Assembly: GCA_035487355.1 (NCBI GenBank) | Contig: DATHMF010000089.1 | Location: 1 to 64,000 of the forward strand | DNA from: Terriglobales bacterium | Lineage (GTDB): Bacteria > Acidobacteriota > Terriglobia > Terriglobales > Acidobacteriaceae | Direction: 5' to 3' | Length of the DNA stretch: 64,000 nucleotides | Shown: positions 31,880-50,368 of the stretch, piece by piece | How positions within the stretch are numbered: the first letter of the stretch is position 1 | Layout: each line of letters opens with the position of its first letter | Notes under the pieces: generated by a model | Seen by the model: the letters and a program-made list of their open reading frames with translations, nothing else | Databases searched by the model: none | Told to the model about the DNA's origin: nothing | Translations under genes and position numbers: made by a program

Positions 31880-32047
31880 AAAGTGCATTCTAGTGCAGTT
31901 TTTCACGGGGAATACCGTAAAATAAACACTCAGCGTTGACATTTAAGAGTTCGACAGGCAAACTGTCGCCTTCCACCTACTTTGCAAGATGCAATTGGGT
32001 TTAGACAGTTCAAACAAATTGCCGGTTCAACAAGGTTGACAGCAAAC

Positions 32048-32500
32048 GTGAAAATAGCCGGAAACCGGGTCTCGTACACGCTGGACTCCACACTCGAGAG
32101 CGTGAATCGTGCCGAACAGACCGCTGAGAACATGGCGGCCAGGGCGGGTTTCTCCGAGGACGACTGCCATCGTATTTCGATGGCGGTGCGGGAGGCGGCA
32201 GTCAATGCCGTACTGCACGGCAACGCTTACGATCCGCGCAAGAAGGTGCGGGTTGCGTTTGAGAATACCGGAGAGGCGCTGGTGATCACCATCGCCGATG
32301 AAGGCCCGGGGTTGTGCGAGAAGGATGTGCCCAACCCACTGGCGCCGGAAAATTTGCTGAAGCAATCGGGGCGTGGTATTTTCCTCATTCGATCTTTTAT
32401 GGATGACGTAAAGTTCCGCACCCTTGAGCCCGGCACCGAAATTACTTTAATCAAGCATGTTCCCGGAAACTCGGCGGGACACACGGAGGAAGCAAAGTGA
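32048..32500 (+). CDS. Anti-sigma regulatory factor / RsbW-like serine kinase
   Basis: About 150 residues from a GTG at 32048; the frame is open from a TTG at 31982. A GHKL-type ATPase with N-box [15 protein letters not shown]1 DEGPGL and G2 [13 protein letters not shown] motifs. It belongs to the RsbW/SpoIIAB class that phosphorylates a STAS-domain antagonist and binds a sigma factor. The next gene, overlapping or abutting, is exactly such a STAS protein, so the two form a partner-switching pair. No sigma factor or phosphatase gene is adjacent. Confidence 0.9.
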
Positions 32501-32502
32501 CC

Positions 32503-32844
32503 ATGAAGGCCAGTACGCGGCAAGTAGACGGCGTGACCGTCGTAGACCTGAGCGGACGAATTACGCTCGGCGAAGGCAGCGTTGTGCTGCGGGATACGGT
32601 GCGCGATTTGATCTCCCACGGGGACAAGAGAATCCTGCTGAACCTGGGAGACGTTACCTACATTGACAGCTCAGGCATCGGCGAACTGGTGAGCGCCTTC
32701 ACCACTGTCCGCAACCAGGGCGGCGAGCTGAAGTTGCTCAAGCTCACCAAGAAAGTCCATGATCTGCTGCAAATCACCAAACTGTACACCGTCTTCGACG
32801 TCAGGGACGACGAAGCCCAGGCCATCGCGTCATTTAAGAAATAA
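32503..32844 (+). CDS. STAS-domain anti-sigma factor antagonist (RsbV/SpoIIAA-like)
   Basis: 113 residues from ATG at 32503; a GTG at 32497 overlapping the upstream stop is an alternative start. GGAGGAAG serves as ribosome-binding site. The single STAS domain includes [13 protein letters not shown] and the phosphorylatable Ser region [14 protein letters not shown]. It would bind the RsbW-like kinase when unphosphorylated and release the sigma factor. Encoded right after its presumed kinase. Confidence 0.93.
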
Positions 32845-32960
32845 TTGAGTCATTGAACCATTGAGTCATCGGGTGATTGGGTCATTGTGTAATTTGGTAA
32901 TTGTGCAATTCAAAAATTACTTCAATTACGCAATTACCCGATTACACAATTATTCAATCC
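32845..32960. repeat. TCATTGA tract with a strong inverted repeat
   Basis: After tandem TGAGTCATTGAACCATTGAG units, arms ATTGTGTAATTTGGTAATTG (32884-32903) and CAATTACCCGATTACACAAT (32931-32950) match at 18 of 20 positions. It lies between the STAS gene and the AhpD-like gene, within 18 nt of the latter's start. Confidence 0.7.
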
Positions 32961-32967
32961 GATTTTC

Positions 32968-33492
32968 ATGCGCATTACCCGCCTAGACCGCACTCAAGTT
33001 GACGCCGAATCACAGGCCGTCTATGACGACTTCATGAAAGAACGCGGCAACGTGCCGAACATGTTCCGCAGCGCCGCCCACCGGCCGGAGATCATGCGCA
33101 CCATGGTGGCGCACTTCCGCGCGGTCATGAATACCGGCACGGTCACCAAGAAATTGAAAGAACTGGTGATCGTACGTACTACCCAACTCAACCGCTGCGA
33201 GTATTGACTGGCCTCTCATACCGTCTTGGCAAGACGGCTGGGCTGGACGGACGATCAGATTACGAATCTCACAGATTTTGAGAAGCGCTCCGACTTCACG
33301 GAAGCAGAGAAAGCGGCTTTGCGCCTGACGGAACGCATGACCCTGGACGCACACAAAGTAGACGAAGAGTTGTGGAAGCAGTTGCGTCAACATTTTGACG
33401 AGGGTGAAGTCGTGGAATTGTGCGCGGCCATTGGGCTGTTCAATTATTTCAACCGGTTCAATGACGCGCTGCAGATGGAACCAACGAAGTAG
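32968..33492 (+). CDS. AhpD-like (carboxymuconolactone decarboxylase family) protein, probable selenoprotein with in-frame TGA at codon 80
   Basis: If TGA at 33205-33207 is read through, the frame encodes 174 residues, full length for the peroxidase-related AhpD/CMD family. The N-terminal part is MRITRLDRTQVDAESQAVYD.. and ELVIVRTTQLNRCEY; the C-terminal part is LASHTVLARRLGW through AIGLFNYFNRFNDAL. The family motif is CxxC..H. The sequence here reads C-E-Y-stop-L-A-S-H, so the TGA replaces the second, peroxidatic cysteine, and nothing else is broken: no frameshift and no other stop. A hairpin 20 nt downstream fits a bacterial SECIS. The likely product is a CxxU thiol/selenol peroxidase or oxidoreductase. 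The alternative is a pseudogene or a base error (TGC or TGT to TGA). Confidence 0.75.
33205..33240 (+). promoter_or_regulatory. Candidate Sec UGA codon and SECIS hairpin
   Basis: UGA at 33205-33207 is followed by CCGTCTT (33221-33227), loop GGC (33228-33230) and AAGACGG (33231-33237), a perfect 7-bp stem. The apical loop begins 20 nt after the UGA and its first base is G. Bacterial SECIS elements lie in the coding region just downstream of the UGA, with an apical loop that usually carries an early G at about this distance. A possible lower stem, GGCC (33210-33213) with GGCT (33241-33244), may extend it. Confidence 0.65.
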
Positions 33493-49389: not shown

Positions 49390-50368
49390 AACCGTGTCCC
49401 TTAAACCAATCCACCGCGCGACGCAGAGCGTCGTCAACTGGAACAACTTTGTATCCCAACTCTCGCTCAGCCTTGGCGGAAGAGGCAAACATCTTTTTGC
49501 GGCCCATGCGGACCGCATCCACCGTAGCACGCGGCTCCTTGCCCAGCAGCAGACCAGTAAATACCTGATCGCATGCCGCGAAACCCATGGCGACCATGTG
49601 CGGGACTTTCATCGTGGGAGCTGGCAATCCGGTGATGGCGGCTAGCTTGTCGAGAATCTGCTTCAATGTAAGGTTCTCGCCGCCGATGATATAGCGCTCG
49701 CCGGGATGGGCCTTTTCTATCGCGGTAATGTGGGCACGGGCACACTCGGTTACATCCACGAGATTAAGTCCGGTATCTACATACGCCGGAAATTGGCGGT
49801 TCAGGAAATCTACGATGATCCGGCCCGTAGGAGTGGGCTTGATGTCCTGCTCGCCGATAGGAGTCGTAGGATTCACCAAAACCACGTTGACGCCGTTGCG
49901 TCCGGCTTCGAGGACAACCTGCTCCGCCATGAATTTCGAACGCTTGTAGTGCCCAATCATGTTGGACAGCGCAACCGGCGAGTCTTCGTTGCAGGGCTCA
50001 CCATTTCCGGTAAAACCCATGGTCGCCACCGAACTCGTATAAACTACCCGGCGCACGCCAGCCTCCTGTGCGGCCTGGAGAATAGCGCGCGTGCCCTCGA
50101 CGTTGGCGCGGTACATCTGCTCAGGATCGCGGACCCAGAGGCGGTAATCAGCGGCCACGTGGAAGACGAAATCGCATCCCTGCATTCCTTTTTTCAACGA
50201 CTGGGGATCGGTGAGATCACCGGTCACACGCTCGGCCTTGAGGGCATCAATGTTGGCTGTGGGGCTGCTGGATCGCGTCAGCAGACGCAAATCCGCGCCC
50301 TGCGCCGCCAGCAGGCGGGCGACGTGGCTGCCGACGAATCCGGTGGCTCCAGTGACGAAGGCTTTCAT
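49373..50368 (-). CDS. hpnA: Hopanoid-associated sugar epimerase HpnA
   Basis: 331 residues from the ATG at 50368 (MKAFVTGATGFVGSHVARLL). An extended short-chain dehydrogenase with TGxxGxxG at 7-14 and the catalytic YKRSK motif (about 142-146, GHYKRSKFMAEQ). The HpnA family, of uncertain chemistry, sits with hpnG and hpnH in hopanoid clusters. The 3' end overlaps hpnG. A palindrome GGCACGGCATACGCCGTGCC lies 12 nt upstream of its start. Confidence 0.92.
   Translation of the reverse strand: MKAFVTGATGFVGSHVARLLAAQGADLRLLTRSSSPTANIDALKAERVTGDLTDPQSLKKGMQGCDFVFHVAADYRLWVRDPEQMYRANVEGTRAILQAAQEAGVRRVVYTSSVATMGFTGNGEPCNEDSPVALSNMIGHYKRSKFMAEQVVLEAGRNGVNVVLVNPTTPIGEQDIKPTPTGRIIVDFLNRQFPAYVDTGLNLVDVTECARAHITAIEKAHPGERYIIGGENLTLKQILDKLAAITGLPAPTMKVPHMVAMGFAACDQVFTGLLLGKEPRATVDAVRMGRKKMFASSAKAERELGYKVVPVDDALRRAVDWFKGHGYVRAK

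Follow-up and report, generated by a model that had tools for sequence, protein, structure and literature searches.

AhpD-like selenoproteins with a CxxU motif were described in 2005, when 27 sequences of COG2128 were reported from the Sargasso Sea (PMC1088965). In 2008, 299 sequences followed from GOS (PMC2398784), and the CxxU form of TIGR01926 was entered in a selenoprotein inventory in 2026 (PMC13188914); the earlier note on this DNA was therefore right about predictions from marine metagenomes. According to a 2006 study, Acidobacteria were already selenocysteine (Sec) users with three selenoprotein families (PMC1794560). Soil alkylhydroperoxidase selenoproteins were not found in the open-access literature. 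Two Cys-type proteins serve for comparison. The first is PA0269 from Pseudomonas aeruginosa (PDB 2O4D, 2IJC), whose proton-relay residues are Glu36, Cys48, Tyr50, Cys51, and His55 (PMC3141380). The second is AhpD from Mycobacterium tuberculosis (PDB 1GU9, 1LW1), in which both cysteines of the motif are catalytic (PMC3141380).

The window, i.e., the 64,000 nucleotides of a Terriglobales contig (DATHMF010000089.1) analysed here, contains a candidate member of the same family, with the same CxxU motif, Sec in second place, and a SECIS directly after the UGA (Table 1). In contrast to the described members, this gene is acidobacterial, most Sec copies in its order follow an rsbW–STAS gene pair, and its product falls below the cut-offs of NF053654 and NF041238. 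The selenoprotein family and enzyme type are known; the branch described here belongs to soil Acidobacteria and lies beside stress-signalling genes.

Table 1. Positions of the selenoprotein gene, its elements, and the adjacent genes in the window.
Feature	Position	Strand	Evidence and remarks
RsbW-like anti-sigma kinase (HATPase_c_2)	31982..32500	+	PF13581, 100 bits; first gene of the conserved neighbourhood
RsbV-like anti-anti-sigma factor (STAS)	32497..32844	+	PF01740, 58.9 bits; directly upstream of the selenoprotein gene
AhpD-like (CMD/TIGR01926) putative selenoprotein gene	32968..33492	+	174 codons, one in-frame TGA; homologues full-length with TGA or Cys at codon 80
E65 codon, completes the AhpD proton-relay residues	33160-33162	+	PA0269 alignment
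Redox motif codons C77-E-Y79-U80-L-A-S-H84	33196..33219	+	PA0269 alignment; columns near-invariant in alignment A2
In-frame TGA, codon 80	33205..33207	+	Predicted Sec where CxxC has its second cysteine; aligned to Cys51 of PA0269
Bacterial SECIS apical hairpin	33221..33237	+	7-bp stem CCGTCTT/AAGACGG, loop GGC; pairing, covariation

Direct reading bore out the claim of a frame that is intact save for one TGA: it runs from the ATG at 32968 to a TAG at 33490-33492, has no in-frame TGA besides that at codon 80, and yields 174 residues including U80. In profile searches, the read-through product matched PF02627 (CMD) with 60 bits (cut-off 23) and TIGR01926 ('peroxidase-related enzyme') with 88.5 bits (cut-off 81.8), in agreement with the proposed full-length AhpD/CMD-family protein. 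It scored 95 bits against the equivalog NF053654 (GroundWater_YciW (seleno)protein), under the curated cut-off of 310, and also remained under the cut-off of NF041238, likewise a named NCBIfam (seleno)protein equivalog. Around codon 80, the read-through translation is R-C77-E-Y-U80-L-A-S-H84, the predicted redox motif where the family has CxxC..H.

A homologue scan over 84,980 species genomes retained 80 acidobacterial relatives. TGA at codon 80 was found in the 13 closest of these and in one further (65-77% identity), the remaining 66 of 80 carry TGC or TGT, and no other in-frame stop occurs in any of the 80. Whole-genome searches of relatives added further TGA orthologs, including some from a second family of the same order (51-60% identity). 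The pattern that the earlier note had named as support for Sec, TGC, TGT, or TGA at codon 80 of an otherwise conserved gene, is thus present in acidobacterial relatives, and stops elsewhere, named as the mark of a decayed gene, are absent. In all 43 rows of alignment A2, position 80 holds either Cys or Sec, while a Cys clade of 47 rows has Thr in place of the first cysteine (position 77); the TGA therefore sits at the essential residue. Every member of the TGA group has TAT as the codon before it. A nonsense mutation or a sequencing error in a cysteine gene could in principle produce such a TGA, which is one base away from TGC and TGT and was read from a single contig of a draft assembly. However, the same TGA recurs in many independent genomes from two families and several assemblies, the half downstream of it is conserved (TGA homologues are about 65-81% identical there at the protein level), and the hairpin is kept only alongside TGA. 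Because of this recurrence and the conserved downstream frame, we regard decay as already refuted and its probability as negligible.

The arms of the hairpin stem occupy 33221-33227 and 33231-33237 and enclose the loop at 33228-33230. Nucleotides 14 and 21 after the TGA are the first of the stem and of the loop, respectively, so that the previously described perfect 7-bp stem, its start, and its GGC loop stood, while the loop position given as nt 20 was one base off. All 7 pairs and a G as first loop base were found in 30 of 30 distinct TGA homologues tested, versus six or more pairs in 0 of 68 Cys homologues, none of which exceeded five; the proposed bacterial SECIS shows covariation and occurs in TGA homologues only. 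Across 26 distinct rows of orthologs and paralogues, 99.5% of cells were paired, and 37 double-change cells revealed compensatory changes at six of the seven stem pairs, with related rows inflating these counts; the Cys homologues offer the stricter control. The covariation score was reached by none of 500 shuffles, and slid partners dropped to 33-57% paired. Synonymous identity at codons 85-88 and 90 was 0.92-1.0 in the TGA group versus 0.51 in the rest of the gene; at the same codons, the Cys group had 0.35-0.55 and no excess. Furthermore, in 1.91 Mb of the own genome, only 11 of 60,758 TGA trinucleotides are followed by an in-register hairpin, three of which belong to the window gene, an AhpD paralogue, and selD, and the hairpin therefore exceeds chance expectation. 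A covariance model scored 66.5 bits at the hairpin, with the window sequence itself among the model's own sequences. Two results count against the element: its single-sequence fold energy was unremarkable (z -1.38), and no Rfam family reached the gathering threshold in the window. A SECIS motif scan of viral contigs gave no match. The evidence for the hairpin consists of register, covariation, and synonymous constraint, not of single-sequence fold energy.

The own genome, a 96.6% complete draft of 5.4 Mb in 118 contigs, contains a tRNA-Sec (76 bits; anticodon TCA according to ARAGORN), selA (557 bits), and selD (373 bits). The latter carries its own TGA, followed by a hairpin with the same GGC loop and a register identical to that of the window gene. 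What counts against the reading is selB, which was not found in the draft by means of the family, the C-terminal SelB-wing_3, the DNA of a same-genus selB locus, or the protein of the latter. A search of the leading 20 kb of each of the 118 contigs (1.86 Mb) likewise yielded no selB, with matches to EF-Tu and other translational GTPases only; nor did it recover the lpxC-like gene adjacent to selB in the same-genus genome. Since 31 of the 41 genomes in the relatives set, the same-genus draft included, had selB above the cut-off, and 10 of 10 TGA-carrying relatives searched specifically also contained it, its loss through an assembly gap is the likeliest explanation. Of the Sec machinery that the earlier note had proposed to look for, all but selB was thus found in the draft, and selB was found in relatives. 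A SelB-family match on contig C105 was rejected, as it covers the GTPase part only, comprises 405 codons, and adjoins tRNA genes usual for EF-Tu. An ortholog at E <= 1e-40 was present in 34 of 100 near-complete genomes from the order, and selA was present in 16 of 16 genomes with a TGA ortholog versus 4 of 18 with a Cys ortholog (Fisher one-sided p = 2.2e-6, uncorrected for relatedness).

These data also bear on an altered genetic code, in which UGA would stand for a different amino acid (Trp or Cys), and on two separate proteins produced by re-start. A TTG at 33226, 19 nt downstream, could open an 88-residue ORF, but it is part of the frozen hairpin, whose pairing dictates the codon, and two separate halves would place Cys77 and His84 of the active site on different proteins. 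As the genome contains tRNA-Sec, selA, and selD, and the TGA of all homologues falls at the Cys position, we consider both variants extremely improbable. The selenoprotein reading of 32968-33492 is strongly supported at the sequence level, and we hold it to be very probable that this is an intact gene for an AhpD-like thiol/selenol oxidoreductase (TIGR01926/COG2128). The ribosome would read UGA80 as selenocysteine, directed by the hairpin together with SelB carrying Sec-tRNA-Sec, which would be made by SelA with selenophosphate from SelD.

A structure model with Cys substituted for Sec was all-helical (pLDDT 94.9), and its top PDB matches were AhpD-like proteins with TM up to 0.89. The predicted protein resembles PA0269, which is likewise all-helical and has the same Glu/Cys/Tyr/Cys/His order (PMC3141380); by sequence alignment, its five relay residues correspond to E65, C77, Y79, U80, and H84, all of which are kept. 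PA0269 differs in that it has Cys where Sec is predicted here, shares about 33% identity, and has a shorter N-terminus. M. tuberculosis AhpD is similar with regard to the Glu-Cys-x-x-Cys-His proton relay and the redox helix hairpin; however, Tyr replaces its His132 in the window protein, the fold match is weak, and the topology differs as it does for PA0269 (PMC3141380). Because the PA0269 relay residues align and the motif cysteines of M. tuberculosis AhpD are catalytic, the selenolate of Sec80 is likely the attacking group, with Cys77 as putative resolving partner and Glu65, Tyr79, and His84 as putative proton relay. Given these roles, the predicted enzyme would most likely reduce peroxides or hand electrons to a peroxiredoxin-type partner, against which it counts that PA0269 itself is a weak peroxidase (PMC3141380). 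The selenoprotein could instead serve mainly other thiol/selenol chemistry, e.g., Bmp8-like reductive dehalogenation or RsbW/RsbV-like redox input. The debrominase Bmp8 matches in fold and sequence, but at only about 20% identity, and the rsbW–STAS–ahpD order is conserved, but function is not shown by gene order. As all five AhpD relay residues are retained, with Tyr as in PA0269, we rate such a main function as unlikely, though deserving of attention. In the 47-row Cys clade (e.g., L034, L040, and L050), TPYC replaces CxYC; this loss of the first cysteine with the second one kept suggests that these orthologs may use one-cysteine chemistry.

Among loci with sufficient flanking sequence, STAS and HATPase genes precede the AhpD-like gene in 25 of 29 with Sec versus 3 of 44 with Cys, counts that are not independent because some Sec loci represent the same genome twice. 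The three Cys loci correspond to Cys rows that branch among Sec rows. At several loci, the selenoprotein start follows 8-18 bases after the end of the STAS match, which suggests a single transcript there; the gap in the window is 123 bases. This spacer (32845-32967) consists of degenerate repeats such as ATTGAGTCATTG and AATTGTGCAATT, and a different repeated text, GTACTGAGTACCGAGTACTGACTACTGAGTACT, precedes the tRNA-Sec gene (L009 1465-1495). The conserved neighbourhood suggests a link of the selenoprotein to stress signalling, and the recurrent association with RsbW/RsbV-like genes provides a testable hypothesis for its role. The unit of RsbW-like kinase, RsbV-like STAS protein, and Sec-AhpD might feed a selenium-dependent redox signal into an anti-sigma partner-switching system for the stress response of soil Acidobacteria, with the selenoprotein setting the switch by sensing or removing peroxide; we consider this specific scheme rather doubtful. 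No report of the rsbW–STAS–AhpD arrangement was found in the open-access literature, and none joins selenocysteine or AhpD with an anti-sigma factor antagonist; the placement is apparently unreported so far.

On the unrooted 94-row tree, the Sec/Cys label needs two changes only. The Cys rows L035, L046, and L053 are nested in a mostly Sec clade and have kept the same upstream genes as the Sec loci, without the hairpin. A change from Sec to Cys at the window-type locus is the simplest reading, its direction being an inference because the tree is unrooted. A locus occupied by Sec orthologs in some genomes and by Cys orthologs in others, with at least one Sec–Cys switch in a conserved neighbourhood, offers a good natural experiment on the benefit of selenium to the enzyme. 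As standard gene callers end the gene at the TGA, the whole acidobacterial selenoprotein clade is likely split or missed in annotation.

A second AhpD-like gene of the own genome (L153 1629-2168; C73, about 49628-50168) carries a TGA in frame within QCHYU; its 8-bp hairpin (CTCGCTTC/GAAGCGAG) shares the register of that in the window gene. Its relatives in other genomes adjoin selB, and some carry TGA, others TGC. At the selB loci L103-L122 of this family, selB often adjoins an AhpD-like gene, a GNAT acetyltransferase gene, and a TrmFO-like gene; in the own genome, the GNAT gene and the AhpD paralogue lie close together, and selB is absent from that spot. Several further acidobacterial AhpD-like paralogue groups (L166-L180, L148, and L164) carry TGA at the same motif, pointing to a putative large AhpD-type selenoproteome in Acidobacteria. 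The hairpins of these groups differ, e.g., ACGCAGA-GTT-TCTGCGT and TTCTGCC-GGG-GGCAGAA.
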